Below are positions 31,347 to 49,259 of a stretch of DNA of 49,259 nt, piece by piece. The translations under genes and the position numbers were made by a program. The notes under the pieces are model-generated. The model was not told the DNA's origin. It made no database searches and saw only the letters and a program-made list of their open reading frames with translations. The stretch is taken from contig NZ_KI421425.1 in assembly GCF_000472285.1 (NCBI RefSeq), positions 1,145-50,403 on the forward strand. The letters run 5' to 3'. Every line of letters starts with the position of its first letter. Within the stretch, counting starts at the first letter, position 1. The DNA comes from Desulfuromonas sp. TF. Its GTDB lineage: Bacteria; Desulfobacterota; Desulfuromonadia; Desulfuromonadales; ATBO01.

Positions 31347-32795
31347 CTACCCCGCCGGCAAAAAGTCGATCGGGTACAGGATGGTCGTCTTCGGCACGCC
31401 TTCTTTCGGGCCAAAGTTGAACCTCTCGACGCGCTCGACGATCTGGGCCACCAGCTCGGCCGAGGCCAGGTCCGTAGACTCCACCCTGCACAGGGACACT
31501 TCGCCGCCCGGCTCAATGATGAGTCGCAGCAACATCTTCCCGCGCAACGTCGGATCCCTGCGGAGTTCCTTGTTGTAAATTCGATAGAGGGTCGCCTTGT
31601 AGCGATCGAATACGATCTGGATTTCCTCGTCCGTCCGGCCCGGACCGGGCCCATCGCTCAGCGGCCGTCCCGCCTCTTCCGCCAGACCCGCCACGGCGCT
31701 TTCCACCCGCGCGAAGCCCACTTTGCCGATGCCGTTTCCACCCTTTCCGCCGCCCCCGGCTCCGATGTTGCGGCTGACCGCGGCGCCTCCGATGCCGCCG
31801 CTGGAGCCCTTCGCCTGCATTGCCACCAGAGAGCGCTGGGCGCGGGCCTGCCCTGCCGCCTGCATGTTCTTGTCGTTCAGACGGGCCTCGGCGCCGAGCT
31901 TCGCCACGGGAGTTTCGTCCATGAGATCGGCAAAGGAGCTCTTGAACGCCAGCACGCCGGTGTTTTCAGCTTTTTTACGCGCCTCCTGCGTTCCGGCCGG
32001 TTTCGAGGCTTCTTTCGCCACCTTCACCTGCTTTTCCTTTGCCGGGCTTTTCTGCGGTTTTTCCGGTTTCTCAGGCTTCTCCGGTTCGGGCTCGGGCTTT
32101 TTCTCTTCCCTGGGCCGCTCCGGAATCGGCTCCGGTCGGGGTGGTTCCTTCTTGACCAGCATGGCCAGCCGGTCAGGAATTTCGACCACGACGGCCGAAC
32201 GGTCCGGGATCGGCAGGTTCACCAGGGGGATGAGAGAGCCGACAACTGCGCTCCAGAAGAGGGCAACCATCAGGAACCGGCGGAATCGCCTTTCGCTCTC
32301 GCCCTCGCCGGTCCAGGGCATGATCATCTGCCGGAATGGAACGGCAGAGATCTCCCGCTCGATGACGAATTCGTCCAGGCGCCGCTCTTCACGGGCGTAC
32401 GCCTGGCGAACCTCTTCGTACAGGCACTCCATTTCCTCGTAAACCCGGCCGGCCTGCGCCTGGAGGGATTCATGTCTTTCCCGGGCACCCCGGATCTCAC
32501 CCTCAAAGCGGACAATGCGTTCCCGAAGCCTCTCACGGTGCCCGGCGGTATCGGCGACCTGCGGGACGCCTTCCCAGAAGAGCTCAGCCGCTCCCATCTC
32601 TTCCAGCGCGTCGAGAGCGGTGCAGACATCCTGCAAGGCATCGAACCGCAGCCGGTCGGCGGAAAACGTTTCGAGCTCTGCCTCTGCAACGCGCAGCTCA
32701 CCTTCGAGCACATCGAGTTTTTCCCGAACTTGCCCGATCTGCGCGTTCAGCGGCTCCAATTCCTGTGTCAATATAGATGTATTCACGGCGTCCAC
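31347..32795 (-). CDS. TonB/AgmX-like energy transducer with N-terminal coiled coil
   Basis: A 482-aa inner-membrane protein. The N-terminal 170 residues are cytoplasmic coiled coil. A single transmembrane helix (about 174-192) is followed by a Pro/Glu/Lys-rich linker (about 217-258), a Gly-rich stretch, and a C-terminal AgmX/PglI or TonB_C-like domain (about 385-482, with RDPTLRGKMLLRLIIEPGGE). TonB proteins lack such a cytoplasmic part, whereas AgmX/GltJ of the Myxococcus gliding machine has one of another type. The start is GTG at 32795, one base after the exbD stop, with CAGGG upstream. It is probably the link between the ExbBD motor and outer-membrane partners. Confidence 0.85.
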   Translation of the reverse strand: MDAVNTSILTQELEPLNAQIGQVREKLDVLEGELRVAEAELETFSADRLRFDALQDVCTALDALEEMGAAELFWEGVPQVADTAGHRERLRERIVRFEGEIRGARERHESLQAQAGRVYEEMECLYEEVRQAYAREERRLDEFVIEREISAVPFRQMIMPWTGEGESERRFRRFLMVALFWSAVVGSLIPLVNLPIPDRSAVVVEIPDRLAMLVKKEPPRPEPIPERPREEKKPEPEPEKPEKPEKPQKSPAKEKQVKVAKEASKPAGTQEARKKAENTGVLAFKSSFADLMDETPVAKLGAEARLNDKNMQAAGQARAQRSLVAMQAKGSSGGIGGAAVSRNIGAGGGGKGGNGIGKVGFARVESAVAGLAEEAGRPLSDGPGPGRTDEEIQIVFDRYKATLYRIYNKELRRDPTLRGKMLLRLIIEPGGEVSLCRVESTDLASAELVAQIVERVERFNFGPKEGVPKTTILYPIDFLPAG

Positions 32796-32796
32796 G

Positions 32797-33291
32797 CTAA
32801 CCCTGCGTTGCCTTCTGAATGACGGCGAGAGAAATCCTGCCGTAACCGAAATGTGTACAGGTCGACATGACTTTCTTGAGGGCGCTGAAGGGAATCGACC
32901 TGTCCGCAAGAAGAGTGATCTCCTTGGCTTCCACGGCCGCCTTCGTACTTATCCCGATCACGTTCCGTTCCAGCCGCTCGAGCCGTTCGGTAATCGCCCC
33001 GATCGTCTCCTGTTCCGATGCAAGGAGTTCGGCCGTACCGATCACGACTTCTCCCTGGACCAGCACCTCCTCGGGACCGACCATGACCACCACCGTTTCC
33101 CGAGGCTTGGCCTCGACCACCGAATCGGGAAGCTTGATCTGCTTGGGGGTGGTCAGAACCTCGCTCGATGACGAGTTGGCGAGCAGGAAGAACACCAGGA
33201 TGGTGAAGACGTCCATCAGCGAGGTCAGGTTCAGGCCCGTCACCTTTTTCCTGTTGCGCCCCATTCGTTTGATGCGTCTGGAATTCCTCAT
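32797..33291 (-). CDS. ExbD/TolR-family biopolymer transport protein (first copy, Asp present)
   Basis: A 164-aa inner-membrane protein. It has a short basic cytoplasmic N-terminus, one transmembrane helix (about 22-40) with the conserved proton-carrying aspartate (Asp27 in LTSLMDVFTILVFF), and a periplasmic domain. With ExbB and the second ExbD it should form a proton-driven motor of the ExbBD/TolQR/AglRQS type. The ATG overlaps the stop of the second exbD by 4 bases (ATGA), so the two are translationally coupled. The TonB/AgmX-like gene starts one base after its stop. Confidence 0.92.
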   Translation of the reverse strand: MRNSRRIKRMGRNRKKVTGLNLTSLMDVFTILVFFLLANSSSSEVLTTPKQIKLPDSVVEAKPRETVVVMVGPEEVLVQGEVVIGTAELLASEQETIGAITERLERLERNVIGISTKAAVEAKEITLLADRSIPFSALKKVMSTCTHFGYGRISLAVIQKATQG

Positions 33292-33779
33292 GGCGCGTCT
33301 CCGATCGATATATTGGGGAAGAGCACGGTCTTCTGAACTTCTTCGCTCTTCGCATCCCTTACCTCGACCCCGCGCACCGTATCCATGACCTGAATCAGAT
33401 GGTCATACTCGATCTGGGGTTCCATCAGGACCGTCGCGTCGTCCTTCTGCGGGTAATCGGCTTTGAGGCGGCTGAGCATTTCGGAGAGCTTCTTCAGATC
33501 GTACTGATCGTCTTTTTTCGGAATCGCAGCCACCACGCTTGCCCCGTTGGCCAGCTCCAGTCCGGCCTTGCGGACAATCACCTCGATACTGAAGTCCGGC
33601 TGGGCCGAAGCCGCACCTCCCGCAGCCGTCGGTACGCTCAACTCCAGGATCGTCACACGCGAGAACACGGCGCTGATGAGAAGAAATGGGACGAGCACCA
33701 CCATCAGATTCAGGAAGGTGGTGATGTCGAGTTCAGGTGCCTCTCTCGTCCGCCTTTTGGAGTGATGTCGTCTGGCCAT
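33288..33779 (-). CDS. ExbD/TolR-family protein (second copy, Asn in place of Asp)
   Basis: A 163-aa ExbD-type protein, one transmembrane helix (about 20-40) and a periplasmic domain. At the position of the conserved aspartate the helix reads ITTFLNLMVVLVPF, so Asn24 replaces Asp. A nearby Asp18 lies before the helix. Without the acid this copy is not expected to carry protons in the usual way and may be a structural partner of the first ExbD. I start at the ATG at 33779, two bases after the exbB stop. An in-frame TTG six bases earlier is an alternative. Confidence 0.9.
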   Translation of the reverse strand: MARRHHSKRRTREAPELDITTFLNLMVVLVPFLLISAVFSRVTILELSVPTAAGGAASAQPDFSIEVIVRKAGLELANGASVVAAIPKKDDQYDLKKLSEMLSRLKADYPQKDDATVLMEPQIEYDHLIQVMDTVRGVEVRDAKSEEVQKTVLFPNISIGDAP

Positions 33780-33781
33780 GG

Positions 33782-34432
33782 TCAACTCGCCGGAAACTGG
33801 CGTTTGGCGAAATTGGAGATGGTGTTCAGCACCTTGACCGAGGCCATCTCAAGGCTGTCCACGACCTGACCGGTGGTCGAAGTCAGCTTGGCGTGAAGGA
33901 TCAGCAGAGGGATCGCGGCCATCAGACCGAAAGCCGTGGTGTTCATGGCCACCGAGATACTGGCGGAGAGCAGGTCGGCCTTCTCGGCGGGGTTCGCATT
34001 GGCCACCGCGGTGAACGCCTCGATCAGGCCCATGATGGTGCCGAGCAGCCCGAGCAGGGTGGCGATATTCGAGAGCAGAGCCACGTAGGGAGTGCGCCGT
34101 TCGAGCTGAGGGATGATCTCCATCATGCTCTCCTCCATGGCGATCTCGATGTCTTCGCGGCGCCGGACCGCTCCCTGACGCGCCAGTCCCATGCTCAGCA
34201 TCTGTGCGATGGTGGATTTGTCCTCGTCGACCATCTCCCGCGCCTTGTCGAACTGACCCTCGGCCAGCAGCGGGTGCACCTCGCCCCACATCCTGCGGTT
34301 GGCATTGCGGACGCGATTCAACTGGATCCATCGCTCGATGGCGATGGCCATGCCGAATGCGAATACGAGAAGAATGGGGTACATGAACAGCCCGCCCTTC
34401 TGAAAAAACGCCACAATAGAATAGATGCCCAT
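33782..34432 (-). CDS. MotA/TolQ/ExbB-family proton channel protein
   Basis: A 216-aa inner-membrane protein with three transmembrane helices (about 11-33, 104-126, 148-172). The family's MNTTAFGL motif in the third helix and the GLLGTIMGL motif in the second are present. By eye, the glutamate that E. coli ExbB has just before this motif is a valine here (ISVAMNTTAFGL). AGGAGG precedes the ATG at good spacing. It is the first gene of the motor module exbB-exbD-exbD-agmX-like, an order close to aglR-aglQ/aglS of Myxococcus. Confidence 0.93.
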   Translation of the reverse strand: MGIYSIVAFFQKGGLFMYPILLVFAFGMAIAIERWIQLNRVRNANRRMWGEVHPLLAEGQFDKAREMVDEDKSTIAQMLSMGLARQGAVRRREDIEIAMEESMMEIIPQLERRTPYVALLSNIATLLGLLGTIMGLIEAFTAVANANPAEKADLLSASISVAMNTTAFGLMAAIPLLILHAKLTSTTGQVVDSLEMASVKVLNTISNFAKRQFPAS

Positions 34433-34520: not shown

Positions 34521-34847
34521 CTACCGGTTTACTAAGTCAATCCGATGTTCCAGCGCGTGCGGCGACGCGGTCGATTTTGCAATGCTGACCTCATAGAAAT
34601 CGAGCTGCCGCCTGAAGACGTCCCGATCCACCGGAGCGGCCCCTTCGCTCAGCATCATTTTCAGACTGGTCTCCACGCCGACCTCGGAGCTTTTCCAGGG
34701 AACGATATACAGCGATTTCGGAGCTTCGTCGTTTCCGACAATGGACATCCCGGAAAGTTCCTTGGGTTCCGATCCGCTTACCCCGGCCATGGCGATGAAG
34801 GGCGACAGCAGGATCAGACACAGCGTGAGAAACATTACTCGGTACAT
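34521..34847 (-). CDS. Small exported protein of the envelope cluster
   Basis: A 108-aa protein with a signal peptide (about residues 1-21, ending AMA) and an otherwise unremarkable periplasmic part. I do not recognise it. It carries the motif VPWKSSEVG and a C-terminal FYEVSIAKS. The ATG at 34847 follows a strong AAGGAGGTGAC. It sits between the TPR lipoprotein gene and exbB, all on the same strand, so a role in the same machine is likely. The 88 bases to exbB show no other gene. Confidence 0.7.
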   Translation of the reverse strand: MYRVMFLTLCLILLSPFIAMAGVSGSEPKELSGMSIVGNDEAPKSLYIVPWKSSEVGVETSLKMMLSEGAAPVDRDVFRRQLDFYEVSIAKSTASPHALEHRIDLVNR

Positions 34848-34859
34848 AGTCACCTCCTT

Positions 34860-34886
34860 GTAGGGGCGGCGCTTGCGGCCGCCCTT
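34860..34886 (+). repeat. REP-like palindrome with GTAG lead
   Basis: GTAG (34860-34863) is followed by a GC stem GGGCGGC...GCCGCCC (34864-34870 with 34878-34884). GTAG or GGAG just before a GC hairpin is the signature of repetitive extragenic palindromes moved by REP-associated transposases (TnpA-REP/RAYT). It lies next to the ribosome-binding site of the 108-aa gene. Confidence 0.6.
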
Positions 34887-34931
34887 GGGAACCTGCCTTT
34901 TTCTCGACTTGAGCTGCTCCACACATAGCTC

Positions 34932-34975: not shown

Positions 34976-35668
34976 TCAGCCCCCACCTCCGAGCCGCATG
35001 CGCAGGTCGGCAATCCACAGTTTCATCTGCTCATCTTCAGACGCGGCCTCGCTGAAGATCTCGTACTGTTCAAGGGCGCAAGCCGGGTCGTTGAGATACA
35101 GGTCGCAGAGAATCCCGAGATTTCTGCGCGCCGGGAGGTACTCCGGAAAACGGGCGAGCGCCTTTTCGTAGATTTCCCGGGCCTCGGCAAAGCGGCCGCT
35201 TTTTCGCAGCAGCAAACCGTATTCATTGCTCGCCGCCGGGTGCTCGGGGACCAGCCTCAGGGCCGTCTTCAGATGCTGCTCGGCCGGCTCCAGCCTGTCG
35301 ATCGCGGCATAGGCCATCGCGATGTTGATATAGGGGGCCGTGACCTCCGGTGTACTCTCGATCACTTTTTCAAGAAGTTCGACGGCCTCCTCGAATTTCC
35401 GCTCTTTCATCATGGCGACGGCACGGTCGAAATCCCTGCGCGACTCCGCATCCAGACTCGGTGTTTCCCTGATGACGAATCCTTCCCGGCCGTCCTGCAG
35501 CCGCGTCACGGCGGGTCCCTCCACCGCGGTGGGAACCTGCTCAACAGGCTCCTGTTTGACCTTTTTCCCGCCGCTTGCGCATCCGGCAAGGAGCAAAAAC
35601 AGCATCAAAAGTGCCGCGCATCCGGCGGGGGTTCGTGCTCCTGACAGCCGCTTATCAATGATCCGCAT
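34976..35668 (-). CDS. TPR lipoprotein, 230 aa
   Basis: An exported lipoprotein: signal peptide with lipobox LLAGC (Cys30) and then a TPR array (about residues 70-215) including AAIDRLEPAEQHLKTALRL and ALARFPEYLPARRNLG. TPR lipoproteins such as GltE and AglT are also part of the Myxococcus gliding machine, so a scaffold role at the outer membrane is plausible. Its ATG overlaps the stop of the 1075-aa TPR gene by 14 bases, so the two are coupled. The product is followed by a 128-base gap with repeats. Confidence 0.85.
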   Translation of the reverse strand: MRIIDKRLSGARTPAGCAALLMLFLLLAGCASGGKKVKQEPVEQVPTAVEGPAVTRLQDGREGFVIRETPSLDAESRRDFDRAVAMMKERKFEEAVELLEKVIESTPEVTAPYINIAMAYAAIDRLEPAEQHLKTALRLVPEHPAASNEYGLLLRKSGRFAEAREIYEKALARFPEYLPARRNLGILCDLYLNDPACALEQYEIFSEAASEDEQMKLWIADLRMRLGGGG

Positions 35669-38600
35669 TGCCTTGCTCCTCGTTTTTGGATTGTTCGGCC
35701 GAATCTGCCTGATCAGTCAGATCGGTCGGATCCGGGACAGGTTGTCCCGCCGGCACCTCTTCCTCCACCGGCACCTCTTCTTCACCCTGAGGCGGTTCCA
35801 GGATCTGCGCCGACTCGGCAGGCAAGTCCGTCGCACCCGCAGCCTCCTCTTCGGCGACCGGGGGAGCGAGCGGCTCCGGCCTGTCGATGGCGAAGGTGTA
35901 GATCTCGAGAGAAGCGATGATGCCGCTCTCCGCTTCCGGTTTGTCATAGCGGGCGGGTATGAACCTGGCCAGTTCCACCAGGCTCTTTTCGATCCACCCG
36001 TTGTAGATGCCGAGGGAAATCAGCTCCAGGTTGCTCTCGTGGACGGCGATGGCCTTCTCCTCGAAGGGATAGGCCTGCTCCTCGATGGCCAGTTCGTACT
36101 GCTCCATCTCCAACGGGCTCAGTCCCTCGGGGCGCTCGGACTGCATCAGGGCCTTGCTGAAATGGGCGTAAATCTCGGCCAGATAGAAGGTCGCCGCGGA
36201 GGTGACATCCCCGACTTCATAATCAATGAGCCGGCTGAAATCCTGCGTCGCCGTCTTCATCAGGTCCTGTTTCCTGCGCAGGTTGACCTCGAAGGGTTTC
36301 ACCAGCCGGACCCCGGCGAAGCGCTCATAACTCAGCTCGGCCAGTACCAGAGCGGCATTCGCGGCGAGATAGCGGGTCCGCGGCGTGCGCTCGTCAACGG
36401 CAGCCGTCTCGATGGCGACGATCCGGCGGAGTTCATCCAGATAAGGTTCCCTCTCCCCCTGTCCCTTGAGGATTTTGGCGATTTTGCTGCGCGTCTCCAG
36501 GTTGATTTCCACCGGCTGCGGGAAATAGTCCACGTAGCGCCGGTAAACCTCCAGGGTGCTCGCCCTGTCCCCCGCCTCCTCGTGCAACTGCGCCGCGATC
36601 AGCAGGGCCTCCCGGCGAAGCTCCTCGTCCCCGGACTCCCTCTCGATCCGTTCGTACTCCCTGGCCGCCTGGGCAAGCTTGCCGTCCTCCCGGTAGACGA
36701 AGGCGATCTTCTTGGTCACCTCGGGCTGCAGCTCGTGTCCGGGGAAGGTGGCGCGAAATCCAGACAGCACGGCGGCCGCCTCTTTCCACGCCTTGAGCTG
36801 GATCAGGGCCGCGGCCGCATCGTATTCGGCGGTCGGCCTGATCTTCGAAGTCGGCGCCATGAGCCCCACTCGCAGGAAATGATCCGCCGCCACGCGGTAG
36901 TCCTCGATGGCGTTCGCCTCTTCCCCCTGCTTGTAGATCGCTGCGGCGAGATTGTCGATCAGAGCGCTGCGCGCCTTGTCGCCTTCGGGGAGCAGGTCCA
37001 GCACCTTCACATAGGCGCCTTCGGCTTCGCCGTAAAGAAGCAGGTCGTAGGAAGAGTGGGCGACGACCAGCCAGGCAGCTCGCAGGATATCCGTCTCGGC
37101 GCCGGGAAAGGCTTCGATGAGCTTTTGCGCGGCGGCCAGCGCCTGCTCATGGTCGCCCATGTCGTAGAGATCGTCCGCCGCCGCTCCGAGGACGATTGCC
37201 GCCTTCTCGTGCTCCGGAAAGGCTTCGGTGAACTTCAGCGAACTGCGGACAATCTCTAGCCTGAGCGGCTTGCGCTCCTCCGGCGAAACGGCGCCGAGAT
37301 GCTCCCGGTAGGCGTAAACCGCCGCGTAGCCCGCCGTGGAGGATTTCTCGTGGCGAGGATAGCCGTAGGCCGTCTTCTCGTATTCAACGGCAGCCTGCCC
37401 GAATGAGCGATTCTCCAGAAGAATGTCCGCCAGCTGGTAGTTGATGCCCGGCGATTCGACATCCTGCGGGAAGGAGCCGAGGAACTCCCGGTACCAGCGC
37501 AGCGCCTCGGCGAAGTTCGCCGCCTTCTCTTCGACGCGCTGCGGGTTCTGATAGAGCGCGTGGTAATGATTCGCCAGGTCCGTCAGGTTGGTCTTCAGAA
37601 AGCCGAGGACTTCCGGACGGGCCTCCGGTTCGAAATGCCGCCAGTATTCGGCCTTAAGACCGTAGTTGGTGGCGAAGGCCTTTTTCGAGTCGATGACGAG
37701 CGTGGGGAAGCCCCCTGCGATATTGATCTCGATCACCCGCATGTGAAAGTTCGGCGACTTTCTGTGGAAAGGATTGTCGCCTGCAAAGGCCTCGTATGTG
37801 GCGACGGCGTCGCTGTAGCGGCGCTTAGCGACGTAATATTCGGCAAGATTGCCGTAGATGCTGTCCTCGTAGCCGCGTTTGCCGTAACGGGAGAAGTATT
37901 CGACCACGAAATCGGCGCCGCCGAGATTGGAAAAACCCAGGCTGATGACCCGGAAGGTGTCATCCATGCGTTTGCGTTCGGGCTCGTCTTCGGTCTGATC
38001 GAAGTCGTATCCCGCGGACACCTTGGTGTCGAGGAGAGCGATGAACTGGTGCAGGGCGTCTTCGTAGAGTTCCTGCTTGTAGAAGGTCCAGCCGAGCTTG
38101 TACAGGGCCAGTTGAAAGAAGGACGAACCGGCGCCGATGCCGACGATGCTCCTGTAGGCGTCCTCGGCATCCAGGTATTGCCGGCGGGTGAAGAAGTATT
38201 CGGCGCGGCGGAACTGCACCTCATCAAGGTACCGGGAGCGCGGGAAGTCGCTCACCAGCCGGTCCATGACCTCCATCGCCTCATCGATCCGCCCCAGCTC
38301 CTCGTAGGCGCGGGACATCTGATACAGCACCTGATCGTTGCGCTCGTAGTACGGATACTCCTCGAGGAGCTTCCTATAGAGTGCAATGGCCTCGAGGGCT
38401 CCCGCCCTTTCCAGATCGTCCTCCCCTGCCCCGGGGACTGGCCCCTCCCCTGCAGTGCCGGTCGTTTTTGGGCTGCGGGTCGCCCGGCCTTCAAAAGCCG
38501 CCTCGGACTCTTCCTGCGCCGAAGTGGATGCCAAGGCCTGCTCCCAAGGCGCGACCTCCGGCCGCGGCGCGGATTCCGGGGCGGGCAAGGACGCTGCTGC

Positions 38601-38882
38601 AGGGTCCGTCTCCTCGCCTTCCCCCGTGATGAGCCCGTATTCCTTCTCGACCTTCAGGTCCGCAAGGCGGCGGATCGCCTCTGGCGCCAGAGGGGAGTCC
38701 GGCGTTTCGTTCAGAAAGCGCTGATAGCTCTCCATCGCCTTCTCGAGCCCGCCGTCGAGTCTCTCCTCCTTGATTTCGATCTGACGGTTACGCAGCTGGG
38801 CGATCGTTCCCCTGTCGTCGAGCGACGAGCAGGCGGACAATATCACCGGAAGCGCCAGGATGAAGTATCGCGACGCGTTCAT
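35655..38882 (-). CDS. Large TPR lipoprotein, 1075 aa
   Basis: An exported lipoprotein with lipobox LSAC (Cys18), so it is anchored in a membrane after secretion. An acidic, Ala/Glu/Pro-rich low-complexity part (about 85-160) is followed by many tetratricopeptide repeats (about 165-850), such as EEYPYYERNDQVLYQMSRAY. The C-terminus is again acidic and low-complexity, ending DPTDLTDQADSAEQS. TPR arrays bind other proteins, so it is probably the main periplasmic scaffold of the machine. The start overlaps the 635-aa TPR gene stop (ATGA), and the end overlaps the next gene. Confidence 0.85.
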   Translation of the reverse strand: MNASRYFILALPVILSACSSLDDRGTIAQLRNRQIEIKEERLDGGLEKAMESYQRFLNETPDSPLAPEAIRRLADLKVEKEYGLITGEGEETDPAAASLPAPESAPRPEVAPWEQALASTSAQEESEAAFEGRATRSPKTTGTAGEGPVPGAGEDDLERAGALEAIALYRKLLEEYPYYERNDQVLYQMSRAYEELGRIDEAMEVMDRLVSDFPRSRYLDEVQFRRAEYFFTRRQYLDAEDAYRSIVGIGAGSSFFQLALYKLGWTFYKQELYEDALHQFIALLDTKVSAGYDFDQTEDEPERKRMDDTFRVISLGFSNLGGADFVVEYFSRYGKRGYEDSIYGNLAEYYVAKRRYSDAVATYEAFAGDNPFHRKSPNFHMRVIEINIAGGFPTLVIDSKKAFATNYGLKAEYWRHFEPEARPEVLGFLKTNLTDLANHYHALYQNPQRVEEKAANFAEALRWYREFLGSFPQDVESPGINYQLADILLENRSFGQAAVEYEKTAYGYPRHEKSSTAGYAAVYAYREHLGAVSPEERKPLRLEIVRSSLKFTEAFPEHEKAAIVLGAAADDLYDMGDHEQALAAAQKLIEAFPGAETDILRAAWLVVAHSSYDLLLYGEAEGAYVKVLDLLPEGDKARSALIDNLAAAIYKQGEEANAIEDYRVAADHFLRVGLMAPTSKIRPTAEYDAAAALIQLKAWKEAAAVLSGFRATFPGHELQPEVTKKIAFVYREDGKLAQAAREYERIERESGDEELRREALLIAAQLHEEAGDRASTLEVYRRYVDYFPQPVEINLETRSKIAKILKGQGEREPYLDELRRIVAIETAAVDERTPRTRYLAANAALVLAELSYERFAGVRLVKPFEVNLRRKQDLMKTATQDFSRLIDYEVGDVTSAATFYLAEIYAHFSKALMQSERPEGLSPLEMEQYELAIEEQAYPFEEKAIAVHESNLELISLGIYNGWIEKSLVELARFIPARYDKPEAESGIIASLEIYTFAIDRPEPLAPPVAEEEAAGATDLPAESAQILEPPQGEEEVPVEEEVPAGQPVPDPTDLTDQADSAEQSKNEEQGNADH

Positions 38883-40786
38883 TGCTCCACCCCTTCCGCC
38901 CCTTCTACCCGGTTCTCGCCCTGCGCCCGCGCGGCGCGGTCGTAGCTGTCCGCCAGGGCGAAACGCGCCTTGATCTGGAACTCTGCGAGCCGGTCGCGGC
39001 GTATGGTGAGTTCATTCACGGCCATCACTTCGAGCATATGCCCCTGGCGGGCCTTCAGCACCGTCACGTTCTCCCTGGCCTCCTCGATGCGGATCCGCTG
39101 ACGGCCGATCGACTGGCTGTAACCCTGATAGCTTTGCGTGGCGGCCTGGCGGGTGCGCACAAAGGCGGTGTACTGTCTGTTCAACCGATCGATGACGTGA
39201 TTCAGTTCCCGAAGGTTCTTCCAGGCTTCGGTCAGGCGTCGGTCGTAATCGGTATGAATGTTCCAGTCCAGCACCCCCCGCAGACGACGGATCCGTGCCT
39301 CGGCCTCGCCGGGGATCTCGCCTCCGACGGCGGCCAGGGGCTGCTCCATCCCCGCAATCCGTTCCCTGAAGATCCGCTCCTCCGCCGTCGCCAGGTAATC
39401 AGGCCTGGGTGCGGTCAACATGGCCTGGAGACGCTGTTCGATACGGTCCCGCTGCTCCAGGCGCAGGCGCATCTGCGAGTCGAGCCGCCGGAATTCCCGA
39501 TCGGTCTCAGGGAGCAGGGGCTGGTAATACGCCCGGCGTTTTTCGATGATCTCCTCGAAAGCGTTCAGATCCTCCTCCCAGACATCCAGCTTCCTGTGCA
39601 GCTGCTCAAGATCGAGATAGTTTTTCAAGGATTCCTGGAAATCGTGGGAGGCCATCAGTTCGAGCAGGTAGTAAGTCTCGGGCGCCTCCGGCAGCTCACG
39701 GAGCCTGACCACCCAGTTGGAATCCTGTTTCAGTTCCTCACGCACCAGGGCGCGGAGAAATTTGCCTTCGCGGATGCTCCTGATCGAAGCGCCGAGCTTG
39801 TCGACCTCCGTGCCGAACGCCTCCAGGGCGCTGCCGTACATCCGTGCGGCCTTGCTGTGCACCCCCAGCTTTCCATAGGCATAGGGGACGGCGAGCATGG
39901 CTTCCTGCACCGCCGCGTCCGTCACCTCACGCTCGGCGAGGATGCTCCAGGGCACCAGCGCTCTGTCGAATTTTCCCCGGAAGGCGTCGGCCCATCCCGA
40001 GCCGAGCAGCGCCCGGTTGGAGAACGGTCCGCTCAGGCGCACCCGGTCGAGCACCCCTTTGCCTCCCTCGAAGTTGTCTTCCTCCAGCAGCTTGTTGCCA
40101 AGGACGAGGTTCGATTTGTCCTTGATCGCCAGGGTGGCGGGGCTGTCGCTGTCGATGAGGCCGGTGCGGTCGAGAAACCGCCGCCCCTCATCCTCTTTTC
40201 CCTCCCTCAGCAGCGCGATACCGAGGTTGTAGGAGGTAAAGCCTTCCAGGCTCTTCGCATCCTGAAGCTCTCTCAGAATATCCGCGGCCTCGGCGAAGCG
40301 GCCGTTCGCCATGAAGATCTGTGCCCGCAGGAATGAGAGATCGTCGCGAATGGTTGCGGGCACGCTCCCCCTGATGCGCTCCACAGCATGCAGGGCATTG
40401 AGCGGCTGGTCTTTCTGGAAGTAGATCCGGGCCAGACGGAAAATGGCCTCGTTGCGCACCGGCTCCTCTACGTTTCCCTCGATGACCGCCTTGATTGCTC
40501 GGCCGGCCCGGTGATGCATCCGGTAGGCCAGTTCAAAATCCCCCACGGCGAATTCGGCCTGGCCGATGTGGCGGAAAAGGGAGTCGAGTTCCGGCTCGTC
40601 GAGTCCATGGTGCTGCTCCAGCTCGGTGTCGAGCCGGGCGACGGCATCGAACCACTCCCCCTGGAAGGCGTGATACAGAGCCTCTCCGAAATAGAGGTCC
40701 TTCAGCTCCTCGGGCGCGGTGGTGCTGGCGGCCAGTGAAGGAGAAGCGAGCAGCAGAATTGTCAGGAGAATCAAAAATCTCATCAT
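38879..40786 (-). CDS. Exported TPR protein, 635 aa
   Basis: It has a signal peptide (about residues 1-20), then TPR-like helical repeats over the first half (EALYHAFQGEWFDAVARLD, AIFRLARIYFQKDQPLNALH) and long alpha-helical or coiled-coil segments in the second half. I place the start at the ATG at 40786. The longer reading runs back through the intergenic palindrome at 40804-40861, which gives an implausible SYRTYGSYRS peptide. It lies between the small exported gene and the 1075-aa TPR gene, overlapping the latter by 4 bases. Confidence 0.82.
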   Translation of the reverse strand: MMRFLILLTILLLASPSLAASTTAPEELKDLYFGEALYHAFQGEWFDAVARLDTELEQHHGLDEPELDSLFRHIGQAEFAVGDFELAYRMHHRAGRAIKAVIEGNVEEPVRNEAIFRLARIYFQKDQPLNALHAVERIRGSVPATIRDDLSFLRAQIFMANGRFAEAADILRELQDAKSLEGFTSYNLGIALLREGKEDEGRRFLDRTGLIDSDSPATLAIKDKSNLVLGNKLLEEDNFEGGKGVLDRVRLSGPFSNRALLGSGWADAFRGKFDRALVPWSILAEREVTDAAVQEAMLAVPYAYGKLGVHSKAARMYGSALEAFGTEVDKLGASIRSIREGKFLRALVREELKQDSNWVVRLRELPEAPETYYLLELMASHDFQESLKNYLDLEQLHRKLDVWEEDLNAFEEIIEKRRAYYQPLLPETDREFRRLDSQMRLRLEQRDRIEQRLQAMLTAPRPDYLATAEERIFRERIAGMEQPLAAVGGEIPGEAEARIRRLRGVLDWNIHTDYDRRLTEAWKNLRELNHVIDRLNRQYTAFVRTRQAATQSYQGYSQSIGRQRIRIEEARENVTVLKARQGHMLEVMAVNELTIRRDRLAEFQIKARFALADSYDRAARAQGENRVEGAEGVEQ

Positions 40787-41572: not shown

Positions 41573-44500
41573 TCACATCTTCCCGATAATATTGATGAAC
41601 AGCCCCTGGTGGTCGTAGTCCAGATCGGTCAGGTCATCCGAAAACTTGCTGAAGTTGTACCCGGCGCCTACCTTGACGTGATTGCCGATGTGCCGGTAGA
41701 TGGTCACGAGCGCCCCGCCCAGCCGGTCTTCGGCATCGGGAAGGTCGAGCATGCGCCCCTCGAGGAGGGCATCCCAGCGGTGGAGGAAGTGCCAGTCGGC
41801 ACGCAGCACAACAAGATGGGCCCGGCTTTCGAAGAATTCCCGATCGACACGGTCCTGGCTCACCTCGCCCTGGCGGTAGGCATACTTTCCCCCCACGGTC
41901 CAGCGGGGCGTCACGTCGTACATGACATCGACGGCTCCGATGTGGCTGCGCTGGATGACGGTGGAGCCCGAACCGGAGGCGGTCAGCTGATCGGCGGCCG
42001 GGACGTTGTAGAAATAGGTGTATTTGAACAGCGCATTCAGGCGGTCGTGATGGACGGGGCGATAAGCGTAGCCCAGGACCGCCTCCGTGAAGTCGCCGTC
42101 GTAGAACTGCCCCTGCGAACTCTCGCTGTGGGCGTAGTTGAGTTTTCCGATGAGACGCCAATCCGGTGACAACTGGTATTTGAGGCCGTTTTTCAGCAGC
42201 CAGGTGGTGCGCCTCGTGCTCGTGGCGTCCGGCTGTTCCGAGTCGTCCACGCGGTATTCGACGGCACTGGCGATCTTCAGCCGGTCGAAGCCGTAGCCGA
42301 CGCTCACCCCCGCCGCCGTTCTCTCGAGCTCGGCCCCCGTCTGATTATCCGTGAGGGTTCCGAAGTCGACATTCGCACCGAGGTGGAGGCGGTCGGTGGG
42401 GGCGAGATCCACGCCGGTCGAATGCATCAGCCCTGTCGGGATGTCGCCATGGGTGTAGCGCTCCTCCAGGTAGACGCTGGCGCTGTCCGAATACCGCGTG
42501 CGGAAACCGGAAGCCATGTTCCCCTTCCTGGCCCGCAGACCGTTGTCGGTGCGCTCGTTCTCCAGGGCGTAGTTGAGATAGAGCGTGGTGCGGTCGGAGT
42601 AGAGGTATTCCGTCCCCAGCCGTCCGGCCGCCCCGAGATCCCCCTCCGACACTTCGCCGTTCACCTTGAACCTGTCGGTCACCCGGTAACTGCCGCCGGT
42701 ACCGATCCGGCCGTTATCGTCACGGTTGCCGGTCGTCTTCAAGGACTCCTGTACAAAGCCGTAGGCGCTCCAGCGCGCGCGGGAATCGTACAGCAGCTGA
42801 AGCACCGCATCCGTCCGATCTCCCTCTTCCTGGGTCAGGGGGATCTGCGCGGATTTGTCCTTGCGGCTGTCCTGGCGCACGCCCGAGCTCACTGTCCAGT
42901 GCTCGTCCAGCTGGACATCGAGATTCAGCTCGCCGGCCACGGTCTCGAGCCCTTCGCTCTGAATCAGTTTGTCGCCCTTGATCCTCAGGCCCACCCGGTC
43001 GGAGAACGGCAGCTCCGCGGTGCCGCCGTATTGAGTCGTGTCCCGGTCGGTGAGCAGGCCCGGCGCCGAATAACCGGCTTCGAGGTCCTGGTGGTAGAGG
43101 GTGATCCTCCCCCGCCCCTTTTCAAAGAAGTCCCTGAATCCGATGCTGGCATCGGTGCGATAGGCCCGGGCGTCGATCTCCGAGCCGTCCAGGGGATCGG
43201 GCGCACCGAAATTGAAACCGCCGTCGCTGGAGGCCGTCTCGAGCAGCCCCGGCCCTTCGCTGCGGCCGGCTTCGAGCCTCAGCCAAGACTCGGCCGATTT
43301 GCGCAGGGTCACGTCCGCCCCGCCCAGGGTATTTTCGTCCCCGGCTTCTTCACTCCGGCTGGCGGTCACTCCGATTTTGAGGTAGTCGTTGAACCAGTAG
43401 TGAACCCGGCCCCCCGTCGTCAGGTTGTCCGGGTCGTCGAGGCCGGGGGTGAATTCGTAGCGGACCACCAGGAAGGCGGGGTGGCCGCTGATCGAGCCGC
43501 TGTGCACCAGCAGATCGTCGTCCGCCGTCGATGCCAGGGGCTGGGTCAGCAGCAGGCGCCCCTGCAGGTAATCGATATCGTAATCGAGCACCGGGGTCAG
43601 GTTCTTCACGCCGAGCACCAGGCCGGAGTCCTTGTCGCGGATTTCGATGCGCACCCGCTCGGAACCCTCGAGGACGTCCTGGCGGCGCAGGAAATAGAGA
43701 GAACCGCCGGTTCCCCTCAACTCGTCGCGTCCCGCCACCGTGCCGGGCTCGGCGGCGAACCCGTCGGCCATGAAACGCTCCTCGCCGAAGCTCGTGGCGT
43801 CAGCGCTCTGGGTATGCAGGTTCGCGCCGTAGAGCCCACGGTCGACGTGCGCCAGGGTGTTGTCGGTATAACCGATCTTGAAGTTGCCCCAGAGTCCGTA
43901 GTTCGCGCCGTTTTTCAATTTGACGTAGAATTTGCCGCGGGTCGGAGCGTCCTCCTCGACGGTGCCGTCATCGCCGTAGGTCGGGAAATGGTAATCCGGG
44001 TCAATGCGCCTGAACAGCGCCTCGGGCGACTTGTCGAGGAAGTTGCTGAAGATCTCGTCCAGCGGACCTTCGCGCGTATCGGCGCTCGCCGTCAGCCCCC
44101 AGCCGGCGCCGAATTTGCCTCTGGTGTAAAACGCGAGCCGCCCCTGAATGTCCACATCGTCGTCGTACTGGGGTTTTTCCGGGGCGAGGAGCTTGGCCGG
44201 GCCGTGGGTCTTGTTGGCGGATAGGGTCAGATCGGCGATCCCCACCGTGAACCAATCGCTCTTGTTCAGCGCCAGGTCGCGCAGGAACAGCTCTCCATTC
44301 CCTGATTTGTCGAGAACGGCCACCTCGACGGTATGCATGCCGTCCGGAAGGATTTCCTCGGCGACGAAACGACCTTCCCCGTCCACCGGTACGGCAAAGC
44401 CGGCCAGCCACACCCCGTGTTCGGCAGGGATCGCGGTACCGTGGGCCTGCACCGTACCGCCGCGAAGCTCTATGTTCCGGCTGCCGATACGGCTCTCGCC

Positions 44501-46654
44501 ATATCCGACCAGCAGTTCCTCACGGGGATTCGCCGTCGTCACGGACGGGTCGATCCGGTCGACCACCCACAGTGGCTGGGCCAGCGTTTCGTCGAAGCGC
44601 CCCTTCTCGTCATAAACCCGAACCAGGTATTTCAGCTGGCGCCCAGGCGCGGAGTAGGAATCGAAGTCGGGCTGCCACTGCGCCATGCCGTCGCCGTCCA
44701 TCTCGATGACGGCGAGGGGCGTATCGCGGTCGGACTGTTCCTCTTCGAAAATCCTGACCTCAGCCCGCTCGATGAAGCTGCGATAGTTGGTGTAGAGGCG
44801 GAATTGGACCAGGTTCTCGGCAAATTCGGTATCCTCCAGGTCCTGATAACGGATGGTCCGCGGCCAGGCCGTCACGTTGAGCCGCGGCTCCAGCTTCAGG
44901 GTGTCGTGCTTGAACTCGACCTGGGCCTTTTCGAGGGCTACGTCGATGCAGCGCTGCACATCGGGGATACTCTTCCCGGGATCATCGATCGGTTTTCCGT
45001 CGACCGTGATGCGCATGAGATTCAGGCCGAAGGGATTGGCCGGGTTGACCTCACGGGTCAGACGGGTGATGTCTACCCCTTCATAGTCATCGAGAATGGC
45101 CAGCTCGTCGTAGACCACCTGCACCATGACCCGCGAAGTATCCGACTCGATGAAGCCGGCGTTGACCACGTCATCGGACTGGACGTAACCGCGCCCTTCG
45201 AATTCCGCCTGCGGCTCCGTCAGCGTCATCCGGTCGCTTACGGTCGCCATGGCCCGGCGGGCCCGTGCCGTGGACCAGCCGATGTCGTCCCCATAGACCG
45301 CGGCAGTCCGGCGGTCCAGTCTTTCGTTGCGGGTATAGCCGACGAACCGCAGGCGCACATTGGTCTTGTCCTTGATCTCATCCATGATCCTGCGCAAACG
45401 CTCGGTGGTGCCGGCGGGGAGAACCGGCTTGCCGTCTTCGAACAGGATCGGATCGATGCCGCCCGACGGCGAATCGTAGACACGGGTGACCATTTCGGCG
45501 CCGGCGGCGTCCGGGCACAGCTGCGGCTCATCGGGCAGGTCCTGCAGCGGATCGTCATGCCAGAATTCCACTTCGATGCGGCGATTGAGCGCCCGACCCT
45601 GTTCCGTATCGTTGGAGGCGGCAGGCTGCGCCGCCCCCTTCCCCTCGCCTTCAACGGCGCCGTTGGGCAGGCCCAGACCTTCCTGAACAGCGAGGGCGAC
45701 ACGACGGGCCACCGCCTTCGACAACCCGACATGGTTACCGTAGATGCGCTCGTCACGCCCAGCCAGAGGGCTGTTATCAGTGTAGGCGGTGAACTTGACG
45801 ACCACGTTCTGCTTGCCGCCGAGGTTCCTCAAGGCATATCTGACCTGCTGCTGAAATTCTTCCGGCACCGCCAGCATCCCTTCGTCGTAATGCAGAGGCG
45901 CAATCAGGTTCTTGACGCGGGCGCGATGGGAGTGCCCCTCCTTGTATCGCAATTTACAGACAGTTTCGGTACGGCAGATCTTGAGGCGGTTTACCTCGCG
46001 AGGGACGATTACTTCCTTTTCGGCCAGCTTTTCACCGATCTCGTCATACCAGACCTGAACTTCCACCCGGCGGTTGAGCCGCCGTCCTTCCTCGGTCGCG
46101 TTGCTGGCAACCGGCCGGCTCTCGCCAAGCCCTTCATAGGAGATCGCTTCGGGGGGAAGATCGAGCGCCCGCTGGAAATATTCGGCGGTGGTCCCCGCCC
46201 GCTCTCGCGACAGGCCGGTGTTGTCGCCGTAGAGCTCCTTCAGGGGTCCGCTGAGCGACAGGGAGTCGGCGTGACCGACAAAGTGGAGGCGCACGTTGTT
46301 GCGGCCGCGCATGCTCTCGAGGACCGTGCGAAGCCGCTCAAGATAATCCTCGGGGATCTCCGCCTCGCCGAGACGGAAGTGGATGGGGGGTACCATGTTC
46401 TCAAGCTTGATCGTCCGGACGTCCGGCTCGACGACCTGCCGAATTTCCGTGCGATCGCCCTGGTCCTCATCGAAAATGGAGGGATCGAGCAGCCAGGGCG
46501 TGAAGACCTGGTCGGAAGGCAGATGCATTTCGGACGCCTCGCCGCACGAGGCCGTTTCCCAGACACCGGCATGCGAGTCCGCGGCAACGGCAGTAGCGGC
46601 AACTGCCGAGAAAGCACTGAACATAAATAAGATGGCGATACCGCGCTTCAACAT
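41573..46654 (-). CDS. Outer-membrane protein with three OmpA-like domains and a large predicted beta-barrel
   Basis: A 1693-aa exported protein. Signal peptide (about 1-25). Three OmpA C-terminal-like domains (about 60-205, 230-365, 370-520); the first two have the LNRRVEVQVW / LNRRIEVEFWH segments that contain the peptidoglycan-contacting arginine, and the third is degenerate. Next come Ig-like beta domains (about 620-760), then a long region of alternating strands (about 780-1693) that looks like a barrel and ends in GLFINIIGKM. So it could bind peptidoglycan and also span the outer membrane. The start is ATG at 46654; longer starts cross the palindrome. The gene lies between the DUF11 gene and a small exported gene. 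Confidence 0.85.
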   Translation of the reverse strand: MLKRGIAILFMFSAFSAVAATAVAADSHAGVWETASCGEASEMHLPSDQVFTPWLLDPSIFDEDQGDRTEIRQVVEPDVRTIKLENMVPPIHFRLGEAEIPEDYLERLRTVLESMRGRNNVRLHFVGHADSLSLSGPLKELYGDNTGLSRERAGTTAEYFQRALDLPPEAISYEGLGESRPVASNATEEGRRLNRRVEVQVWYDEIGEKLAEKEVIVPREVNRLKICRTETVCKLRYKEGHSHRARVKNLIAPLHYDEGMLAVPEEFQQQVRYALRNLGGKQNVVVKFTAYTDNSPLAGRDERIYGNHVGLSKAVARRVALAVQEGLGLPNGAVEGEGKGAAQPAASNDTEQGRALNRRIEVEFWHDDPLQDLPDEPQLCPDAAGAEMVTRVYDSPSGGIDPILFEDGKPVLPAGTTERLRRIMDEIKDKTNVRLRFVGYTRNERLDRRTAAVYGDDIGWSTARARRAMATVSDRMTLTEPQAEFEGRGYVQSDDVVNAGFIESDTSRVMVQVVYDELAILDDYEGVDITRLTREVNPANPFGLNLMRITVDGKPIDDPGKSIPDVQRCIDVALEKAQVEFKHDTLKLEPRLNVTAWPRTIRYQDLEDTEFAENLVQFRLYTNYRSFIERAEVRIFEEEQSDRDTPLAVIEMDGDGMAQWQPDFDSYSAPGRQLKYLVRVYDEKGRFDETLAQPLWVVDRIDPSVTTANPREELLVGYGESRIGSRNIELRGGTVQAHGTAIPAEHGVWLAGFAVPVDGEGRFVAEEILPDGMHTVEVAVLDKSGNGELFLRDLALNKSDWFTVGIADLTLSANKTHGPAKLLAPEKPQYDDDVDIQGRLAFYTRGKFGAGWGLTASADTREGPLDEIFSNFLDKSPEALFRRIDPDYHFPTYGDDGTVEEDAPTRGKFYVKLKNGANYGLWGNFKIGYTDNTLAHVDRGLYGANLHTQSADATSFGEERFMADGFAAEPGTVAGRDELRGTGGSLYFLRRQDVLEGSERVRIEIRDKDSGLVLGVKNLTPVLDYDIDYLQGRLLLTQPLASTADDDLLVHSGSISGHPAFLVVRYEFTPGLDDPDNLTTGGRVHYWFNDYLKIGVTASRSEEAGDENTLGGADVTLRKSAESWLRLEAGRSEGPGLLETASSDGGFNFGAPDPLDGSEIDARAYRTDASIGFRDFFEKGRGRITLYHQDLEAGYSAPGLLTDRDTTQYGGTAELPFSDRVGLRIKGDKLIQSEGLETVAGELNLDVQLDEHWTVSSGVRQDSRKDKSAQIPLTQEEGDRTDAVLQLLYDSRARWSAYGFVQESLKTTGNRDDNGRIGTGGSYRVTDRFKVNGEVSEGDLGAAGRLGTEYLYSDRTTLYLNYALENERTDNGLRARKGNMASGFRTRYSDSASVYLEERYTHGDIPTGLMHSTGVDLAPTDRLHLGANVDFGTLTDNQTGAELERTAAGVSVGYGFDRLKIASAVEYRVDDSEQPDATSTRRTTWLLKNGLKYQLSPDWRLIGKLNYAHSESSQGQFYDGDFTEAVLGYAYRPVHHDRLNALFKYTYFYNVPAADQLTASGSGSTVIQRSHIGAVDVMYDVTPRWTVGGKYAYRQGEVSQDRVDREFFESRAHLVVLRADWHFLHRWDALLEGRMLDLPDAEDRLGGALVTIYRHIGNHVKVGAGYNFSKFSDDLTDLDYDHQGLFINIIGKM

Positions 46655-46684
46655 CAATTCCGTCTTTAAAAAGAGGCTTTCAGA

Positions 46685-46722
46685 GGTCCTGTAGGACCCA
46701 TAAGACCTATGGGACCTATTGA
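46685..46722. repeat. Palindrome overlapping the DUF11 gene stop
   Basis: GGTCCTGTAGGACC is a self-complementary hairpin, followed by CCCATAAGACCTATGGG, another palindrome. The right part overlaps the stop codon of the DUF11 gene (46716-46718). Related sequence is at 40804-40861 and 34953-34962. Confidence 0.7.
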
Positions 46723-49259
46723 ACCGGCCCGCCTTTGCGCCAGAAGACCTCGGTCTCAACCGTCAGCCGATAGCCGCGGTCCGAGCGGCCCCAGAGATCG
46801 GCGATCTCCTTCTTCAGAGCCTTGAGACGCTGAGTTACCAGCCCTTCACGCTCCACATCCGCAAGGTAGGACAAGCGCAGCACGGACGGCGCTTTCTTCA
46901 ATTCTTCCAGCAGTTGCCCGATCTTCGGCCGCCACTGCAGGCGCAGCTCCGTGGTCTCCGGCTCGAATACCCCGTCGGCGATATCGATGGAAACCACGTG
47001 GTGGATCGTCGCGCCGAAGTTGAACTTCATCATCTTGCCTCGCGTGGCGCGCTGTACCCGCGGATTTTCTGTGGTCAGGCGATATCCGGTAGGCAGGCTG
47101 CGATCGTCCAGCTTCAGGATGAAGTTGCTCCCCCGATCCTCGTCGGGAACCACCGCACAGGTGATATGGAAGCGGCCGTGTTCGTCGGCGGTTCCGATCA
47201 AGCCGCGGGCCGTCACCACGCGGACCCCGGCCAGCCCCTGCTCGCCCTCGTCCTGGTATCCGTTGAGGTTGCGGTCGTCGAATACCTTGCCGATGACGTC
47301 GGTGCAGTCGAAGGTCGGGTCGGGAATGACCCGCACGGTCGCCGTCGCTTCGCCGGAGACGCTCCCTCCGGTGGCGGTATTGAGCACCTGCGCGCGATTG
47401 ACGTATTCACCTTCGGAGACGCCGGCGCCGACGATCAGCAGCAGCTGGAGCGTACGGCTGCCGTTGACCGGCAGTTCGAGGCCGTCCCAGAGCAGCTCCC
47501 GGCCGCTGGCAGCCGGCTCCAGCGGATCGCCGTCCAGGCGGGCGGAGCCTTCCACGTATTTGAAACCCGCCGGGAAGCGGTCGACGATTCCGACGTCCTG
47601 GAGCGGCACGCCGAACACGTTGTTTACGGTGATCGTGTACGGCACCAGCTGTCCCTTGGTCACGTTGATCAGCGATGAGGTCTTGGTGATCGCCACGGCC
47701 CCATCCAGTGCCGGATCGATGGGGATGGCGTTGTTGAACACCTGGCTTTCACCGGGAATGCTGCCGTTGCTGAGGGTGAGGTGGAGGTGATAGGTGGTGC
47801 CGTCCGTGCGCGGCGCCATCGACGGCGGCGGCACCGAAGCGGAAGCCGTCACCTCGCAGTATTCGGCGGTGGCCGGCACCGCGTCGGCCGCGCTGCCGGG
47901 GCAGGCGGGGACGGAGAAGGGCGCCGTCGTTCCGTCGCTCGCCGGGGGAATGATCCCGGACGGCATCGCCATGTAACCGCTCGCCGGAGGGATCACCTGG
48001 AGGAGATAGCCGCCGCCGGGCGGGCAGGACGGATCGCTGAAATTGACGTCGAGCTTGTAGAACCCGTTCTGTGCGGTGACCTGGTTCTGCTGAACCGGGT
48101 CGTCGAAGCACCGGTCCGGCAGCGGCGTCCCGGTCGCGGCGCTCACCACCGCAAGCCTCGCGCCGGAAACGGATGACCGCCGAACGGAGTCGTAAACCGC
48201 GCCGTTGGGGGTGATCGGCAGATTCAGGTCCTGGAGATTGCCGCCGGAAGCGACCGTCACGCCGCTGATGCGCTGCGGACCGTTGATGAAGGGCGAATCG
48301 GCAGTGCCGAGCGAGGCGGTGTTCGGGCCCGCCCCCGAGGCGCGGAAGCGAAGTTCATAGGAATCGGCCGTCGCCTCGTTGGGGGCGAGGCCGCTGAGAC
48401 GGTAGACGCCCTCCCCGTCCGTCAGCACGGTGGCGAGAAGCCGGCTGCCGCGATAAAGCTCGACCGACCACCCATCGAGGCTCTGCTCGGCTCCGTCGTG
48501 GAGCTTGTCCAGATTCGCGTCGTGCCAGACCCGGCCGTTGAGGATACCGCTCCCCGGGATGCCTCCGATATTCACCGACGCACTGTCCGACGCGGTCTGA
48601 TCCGTGCCCCAGGTCACCTCCGCCGTGTTGGTGATCGTCGTCCCCGTCGGAACGGACGGGCCGATGTTGGCGCGGAACCGAAGGACGGCCGTCGCGCCCG
48701 GCGGCAGGTCGCCACAGGTCGCCGTCAGCACCGGCGCCGCGTAGCCGATGCCGCCGGTCAGACCGTCGAGGGTCGCGGAGCCCGGCACCAGGGGATCGGG
48801 ACCAAGCGGTCCCAGATCATCGATAATCACCACGTCCGTCGCCGTTACGGTGCCGATATTGGTAACGCGGATCGTGTACTCCAGCTGTCCGCCGGCCTGC
48901 GCCGCGCCGCCGATCGCGAAGGCTTCCTTGGTGATGGTCAGCTGCTGGGATCCGCCTACGACCACCTGCGTCGGCTGGTATCCGTTGGCGGGATCACCGT
49001 CCGCGTCGGTCGGCAGCGTCGGCAGCTCACTGAAGGTCACGTTCCCCTGGTTGATGATGATGGTCCCTGCGGGCACGCCGTCATTGACTCTGGCCTCGAA
49101 GGTGATCACTGCGCTGCCGCCCGCCGATACGGTCCCGGCGCCCGGTTGATCAGACGACTGAACCATCAGTCCGGAGATGAGGGGCGACAACCCGCCGTCG
49201 GCACCCAATGCCGCGCCGTTCAGACGAAGGGAATCCTCCACGTAGCCGGTATCGGCGGG
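46716..49259 (-). CDS. DUF11/SdrD B-like surface protein, 5' end outside the window
   Basis: The reading frame is open to the right edge, so only the last 847 codons are seen. The protein has DUF11-type repeats (LTITKEAFAIGGAAQAGGQL, EYTIRVTNIGTVTATDVVII), an SdrD B-like/CNA-B module (NGRVWHDANLDKLHDGAEQ and IGKVFDDRNLNGYQDEGEQG), and a C-terminal part without repeats ending in VFWRKGGPVQ. DUF11 and SdrD B-like domains usually form rod-like stalks of large surface proteins. No anchor or sorting signal is visible at the C-terminus. It is the first gene of the cluster that can be read, 61 bases before the barrel gene. Confidence 0.87.
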   Translation of the reverse strand, partial: PADTGYVEDSLRLNGAALGADGGLSPLISGLMVQSSDQPGAGTVSAGGSAVITFEARVNDGVPAGTIIINQGNVTFSELPTLPTDADGDPANGYQPTQVVVGGSQQLTITKEAFAIGGAAQAGGQLEYTIRVTNIGTVTATDVVIIDDLGPLGPDPLVPGSATLDGLTGGIGYAAPVLTATCGDLPPGATAVLRFRANIGPSVPTGTTITNTAEVTWGTDQTASDSASVNIGGIPGSGILNGRVWHDANLDKLHDGAEQSLDGWSVELYRGSRLLATVLTDGEGVYRLSGLAPNEATADSYELRFRASGAGPNTASLGTADSPFINGPQRISGVTVASGGNLQDLNLPITPNGAVYDSVRRSSVSGARLAVVSAATGTPLPDRCFDDPVQQNQVTAQNGFYKLDVNFSDPSCPPGGGYLLQVIPPASGYMAMPSGIIPPASDGTTAPFSVPACPGSAADAVPATAEYCEVTASASVPPPSMAPRTDGTTYHLHLTLSNGSIPGESQVFNNAIPIDPALDGAVAITKTSSLINVTKGQLVPYTITVNNVFGVPLQDVGIVDRFPAGFKYVEGSARLDGDPLEPAASGRELLWDGLELPVNGSRTLQLLLIVGAGVSEGEYVNRAQVLNTATGGSVSGEATATVRVIPDPTFDCTDVIGKVFDDRNLNGYQDEGEQGLAGVRVVTARGLIGTADEHGRFHITCAVVPDEDRGSNFILKLDDRSLPTGYRLTTENPRVQRATRGKMMKFNFGATIHHVVSIDIADGVFEPETTELRLQWRPKIGQLLEELKKAPSVLRLSYLADVEREGLVTQRLKALKKEIADLWGRSDRGYRLTVETEVFWRKGGPVQ

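Follow-up and report, generated by a model that had tools for sequence, protein, structure and literature searches.

Gene organization of the locus

The window (the whole stretch of DNA analyzed, 49,259 nt) carries on its minus strand a gene for an ExbB-type channel subunit followed by two genes for ExbD-type proteins, which lie among genes for a TonB-type transducer and several TPR proteins. Throughout, ExbD1 denotes the product of the Asn-bearing gene, which comes earlier in transcription order, and ExbD2 that of the Asp-bearing gene. The features referred to below are the following.

31347–32795, minus strand: GltG-like TonB-type transducer with an AgmX/PglI C-terminal domain (NF033760, NF033768)
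32797–33291, minus strand: ExbD2, 164 aa (PF02472, E = 1e-13); its ATG overlaps the ExbD1 stop codon (ATGA)
33211–33213, minus strand: codon GAC for Asp27 of ExbD2, aligned to E. coli ExbD
33288–33779, minus strand: ExbD1, 163 aa (PF02472, E = 4e-14); alternative start TTG at 33785
33708–33710, minus strand: codon AAT for Asn24 of ExbD1, aligned to E. coli ExbD
33782–34432, minus strand: ExbB/TolQ/AglR-type proton channel subunit, 216 aa (PF01618, E = 7e-25)
33950–33952, minus strand: codon GTG for Val161 of ExbB, at the position of E. coli Glu176
34521–34922, minus strand: 133-aa protein between a TPR lipoprotein and ExbB, without a Pfam or NCBIfam match
34976–35668, minus strand: TPR lipoprotein, 230 aa, GltE-like by position (TPR matches)
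35655–38882, minus strand: TPR lipoprotein, 1075 aa, GltD-like by position (TPR/YbgF/BamD-type matches)
38879–40786, minus strand: TPR protein, 635 aa from the likely ATG, GltC-like by position (weak TPR matches)

All three motor proteins exceed the gathering cut-offs of their Pfam families (PF01618 for ExbB, PF02472 for both ExbDs). The order TPR/TPR/ExbB/ExbD/ExbD/GltG is that of the Agl-Glt "core complex" (AglRQS with GltC, D, E and G), in which an ExbB-type gene is likewise followed by a pair of ExbD-type genes and linked to a GltG-type transducer and TPR proteins; here all are gathered in one operon. The transducer gene, with a suggested start at GTG 32795, reaches 55.5 bits with NF033768 (cut-off 40) and an E-value of 8e-18 with NF033760, the latter far under that model's own cut-off; it lies directly downstream of the motor genes in 66/66 relatives with enough sequence at the locus. 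The TPR proteins occupy the positions of GltC, GltD and GltE, with no Glt model match above cut-off, and both lipoprotein types (230 aa and 1075 aa) were found in 54/54 relatives. A protein similar to the 133-aa one, for whose family we searched Pfam and NCBIfam with no match, occurs near the motor genes in 35/54 relatives by single-sequence search and may correspond to the core complex's unnamed "additional gene".

An asparagine at the proton site of ExbD1

The transmembrane aspartate of ExbD/TolR motors is present in ExbD2 (Asp27, helix LNLTSLMDVFTILVFFLL) and absent in ExbD1, where Asn24 (helix LDITTFLNLMVVLVPFLL) falls in the alignment column of Asp25 of E. coli ExbD, with Pro31 at +7 from the proton site. 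In AlphaFold2 single-chain models, the predicted transmembrane helices of ExbD1 (residues 19–47) and ExbD2 (22–40) each contain the proton-site position. The ExbD1 model (pLDDT 81) further predicts an ExbD-like periplasmic domain; its best PDB match in a structure search is the ExbD periplasmic domain 8pek, a weak one (E = 0.013). In ExbB, the pore threonines Thr132 and Thr166 (T148 and T181 in E. coli) are kept and are invariant in alignment A1, and a HMMER alignment places Val161 opposite Glu176 of E. coli ExbB (5sv0) and opposite the corresponding glutamate of TolQ.

An earlier note, made from the sequence of this DNA, had proposed an asymmetric motor from these three residues, all of which (Asn24, Asp27 and Val161) our sequence inspection and alignments confirm. 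It had also taken the Asp-bearing ExbD as the first and assigned the motor to 33288–34432. The Asn gene, however, is transcribed first, and the Asp gene lies outside that interval.

Conservation of the asymmetry among two-ExbD loci

To place the residues in a wider sample, we collected loci by searching genomes of the phylum (247), of the class (194) and of the phylum of Microbulbifer (299), and ran the ExbB alignment once against named genomes, with no Myxococcota among the matches. Two ExbDs on one strand were found at 144 loci, some of which represent the same genome twice; without near-copies, 120 remain. By the residues of ExbD1/ExbD2, the 144 loci comprise 112 N/D, 10 S/D, 2 C/D and 19 D/D, plus one (L110) with Asn in ExbD1 and an ExbD2 helix made unreadable by a broken frame or a lost gene start. 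ExbD1 is thus non-acidic in 125/144 loci (113 N, 10 S, 2 C), and ExbD2 has Asp in 143/144, the unreadable one being the exception. Among the 120 non-redundant loci, ExbD1 carries N in 102, S in 7, C in 2 and D in 9, and ExbD2 carries D in all. Eighteen of the 19 D/D loci are of the Geobacteraceae type; the remaining one, L164, has a tandem pair of ExbDs that is unrelated.

Over the 102 non-redundant N-type rows the Asn column shows 0 changes, and each of the remaining positions of the scanned segment (−9 to +13) varies at least once in the same rows. The Asn codons are AAC or AAT, so that a single transition (AAY to GAY) would restore Asp. No non-acidic ExbD1 has a charged residue at −3 to +13 of the site. 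Asn24 is hence not a chance feature, since it is invariant in the 102 non-redundant loci and stands without a charge at −3 to +13; the conservation of Asn in orthologs, which the earlier note had named as the check to make, is borne out. Its claim that the acid is lost also survives the search for an Asp or Glu elsewhere in the helix, with no substitute at −3 to +13; residue −6 was considered and rejected as such, for it is not conserved (D in roughly half of the loci, mostly N in the rest).

Beyond the site itself, a proline at +7 occurs in 123/125 non-acidic ExbD1 proteins, in 0 ExbD2 and in 0 D-type ExbD1 proteins. The ExbD1 stop codon overlaps a start codon in 101/144 loci, and ExbD1 is always accompanied by ExbD2 wherever the contig is complete. 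Judged from these sequences, the pairing of ExbDs with a single acid is conserved across more than a hundred genomes, which strongly supports the earlier proposal that only one ExbD carries the proton-binding acid.

In two loci with Ser at the ExbD1 site (L024 and L025), the ORF matching ExbD1 also matches the ExbB profile; the ExbB-like and ExbD1-like parts may be fused there.

The ExbB valine

Although the residue and its alignment to Glu176 hold, the ExbB valine alone is weak evidence for an asymmetric motor, because ordinary single-ExbD Asp motors also have Val or Ile in this column (L152, L153, L155, L157–L159, L162, L163, L166 and L168). These same motors rule out Val as a general mark of asymmetric motors. 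Within the Agl-Glt-like two-ExbD family, the ExbB glutamate is confined to the D/D clade. This single-ExbD group, from the phylum of Microbulbifer, carries the ExbB motif ALYNTAFGL or ALYNTGFGL.

History of the ExbD pair and the Geobacteraceae clade

In an ExbD tree, ExbD1 and ExbD2 form two sister clades with the single ExbDs outside; two rows labelled single that fall within the ExbD1 clade represent ExbD1 genes whose contigs are truncated. This topology indicates that ExbD1 and ExbD2 derive from one old duplication. The loss of the acid in ExbD1 is old as well, since every basal lineage of ExbD1 has N, S or C at the site.

We built a second tree from ExbB, ExbD1 and ExbD2 with the ExbD helices left out, in which the Geobacteraceae D/D clade (L006, L049, L051, L053, L058, L130–L133, L136, L137, L139–L141 and L174–L177) is nested deep within the N clade. 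Forcing the near N-type rows together against the D/D clade was rejected (AU p 0.006, an indicative value, as the group under test was chosen with the larger tree already in view). On the stem of this clade, 0.169 of a total tree length of 50.0, ExbD1 regained Asp and lost the helix proline, and ExbB changed from Val to Glu and from AMNTTAFGL to AMNCTAFGL. The coupled regain of the ExbD1 aspartate and the ExbB glutamate is suggestive only, because it is one event. ExbD1 and ExbD2 helices are 72% identical at the protein level in the D/D clade versus 39% in N-type loci; given this high identity, partial gene conversion from the ExbD2 helix is a possible route to the regained Asp. MAFFT placed the Geobacter Asn before a 6-residue gap; we rejected this placing, as the canonical LTPMMD motif results when the alignment is kept free of gaps and anchored on the FLL.TAVF motif downstream.

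The Geobacteraceae operon shares the motor-gene order of the present locus, with an ExbB 74% and an ExbD1 about 68% identical to ours, but differs in its D/D pair, its ExbB Glu and an ExbD1 without the helix proline. The D/D state of the Geobacteraceae is apparently a reversion to symmetry.

A putative motor with a single proton site

From the residues, their conservation, the gene linkage and the phylogeny, we infer a heterodimer, single-site stepping and the load that is driven, and we consider it probable that the locus encodes a motor of the 5:2 type whose axle is heterodimeric, with the one proton site carried by ExbD2 and with ExbD1 as an inert polar partner. An ExbB pentamer would surround an axle formed by ExbD1 and ExbD2, with Asp27 of ExbD2 as the only proton-binding acid, at which protons would load next to Thr132 and Thr166 of ExbB. 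ExbD1 would be a paralogue fixed in a non-protonatable yet polar state (Asn, or Ser or Cys in sister groups), with the helix proline at +7. Having one site rather than two predicts a stroke of 72 degrees and five protons per turn, where two sites would give 36 degrees and ten protons. Driven by the motor would be the GltG-like transducer and, via the TPR proteins, an outer-membrane partner. A 1:1 ExbD pair is favored, short of proof, because of the adjacency of the two genes, the start/stop overlap, the one shared ExbB and the joint inheritance. Several points count against this reading: the regain of D and E is one event, M. xanthus AglQ needs its Asp, and published 5:2 models assume two essential aspartates (PMC12215075). 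In published structures, the two aspartates sit in unequal environments, and in the models the channel alternates between them in 36-degree steps (PMC12215075; PMC12965293).

It is less probable, though an alternative of some weight, that the ExbB pore holds an ordinary D/D homodimer of ExbD2, with ExbD1 beside the motor as a separate, non-conducting accessory such as a plug, a peptidoglycan anchor or a regulator. An ExbD1 that lacks the acid and conserves a helix proline would suit such a role, as would the presence of the full canonical motif in ExbD2 alone. Nevertheless, a polar residue without change exactly at the ExbD1 proton site fits a helix packed in the pore and not one outside, ExbD1 is constantly paired with ExbD2 on complete contigs, and in M. 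xanthus the loss of either aglQ or aglS destroys the sporulation function of the motor (PMC3858216).

An improbable alternative to the heterodimeric axle with an inert ExbD1 is that Asn, Ser or Cys still passes protons via bound water, so that both halves conduct and the motor is functionally symmetric. The replacements are all small and polar and never hydrophobic, which speaks for this view, but asparagine is not protonated at physiological pH. The D-to-N change at this site in M. xanthus AglQ moreover abolishes conductance (PMC3858216). Finally, functionless drift of Asn in a decaying duplicate is very hard to credit: a dispensable duplicate is expected to drift, but the site shows zero changes over a large tree, the gene is present and coupled everywhere, and the ExbD-type domain is retained.

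Taking the one-acid heterodimer further, we tentatively suggest that these loci might represent a long-conserved and widespread class of one-acid 5:2 motors (72 degrees and five protons per turn; an inert Asn/Ser/Cys+Pro helix in a dedicated partner), from which the Geobacteraceae would have reverted to two sites, perhaps through a copy of the second subunit's helix.

Comparison with known motors

Luciano et al. 2011 (PMC3169522) reported, for Geobacter and Gammaproteobacteria, a core complex that is homologous to the Myxococcus AglRQS-Glt machinery and encoded in one genomic cluster; in Geobacter and non-Deltaproteobacteria it is clustered in one operon (PMC3169522). The present motor resembles E. 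coli ExbBD and TolQR in its Pfam families, in the ExbB threonines (T148/T181 as T132/T166) and in the Asp of one ExbD. E. coli, in contrast, has one ExbD that forms a homodimer with two Asp, and Glu176 in ExbB, whereas here there are two paralogues, one without Asp, and Val in ExbB.

Our comparison with M. xanthus is drawn from the literature (PMC9389320, PMC3858216); a plasmid search for Myxococcus sequences gave no match. According to a review, AglQ and AglS both carry Asp (PMC9389320), in agreement with what the earlier note had stated. Unlike in M. xanthus, where Asp28 of AglQ is essential and AglS is described with Asp, the ExbD at the aglQ position here has Asn (PMC9389320, PMC3858216). 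The D28N substitution in AglQ, which abolishes proton conductance and motility (PMC3858216), is the same change as the natural Asn24 of ExbD1. Because aglQ, at the ExbD1 position, needs its Asp, the proposed scheme does not extend unchanged to the M. xanthus motor.

The operon type is already known, and the proton-site asymmetry is provisionally new: we found no description of such asymmetry in paired ExbDs in the searched literature, which comprised mostly open papers with the original AglRQS motor paper outside; a search of the same literature for AglRQS cryo-EM and MotB D32N heterodimers likewise gave no paper that describes it. Models of ExbBD, TolQR and MotAB in which the channel alternates between two essential aspartates in 36-degree steps (PMC12215075) may not hold here. 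A natural one-Asp motor with a two-Asp sister clade would offer a direct test both of the two-Asp assumption and of what the second site adds in torque and gearing. It is relevant, too, to the need of Agl-type motors for two distinct ExbDs, a question listed as open in a review (PMC9389320).

Heading this gene run, 41573–46759 on the minus strand encodes a protein of 1728 aa that has OmpA-like domains and, after them, a possible beta-barrel (weak match); it is a candidate for an outer-membrane, peptidoglycan-linked partner of the motor.
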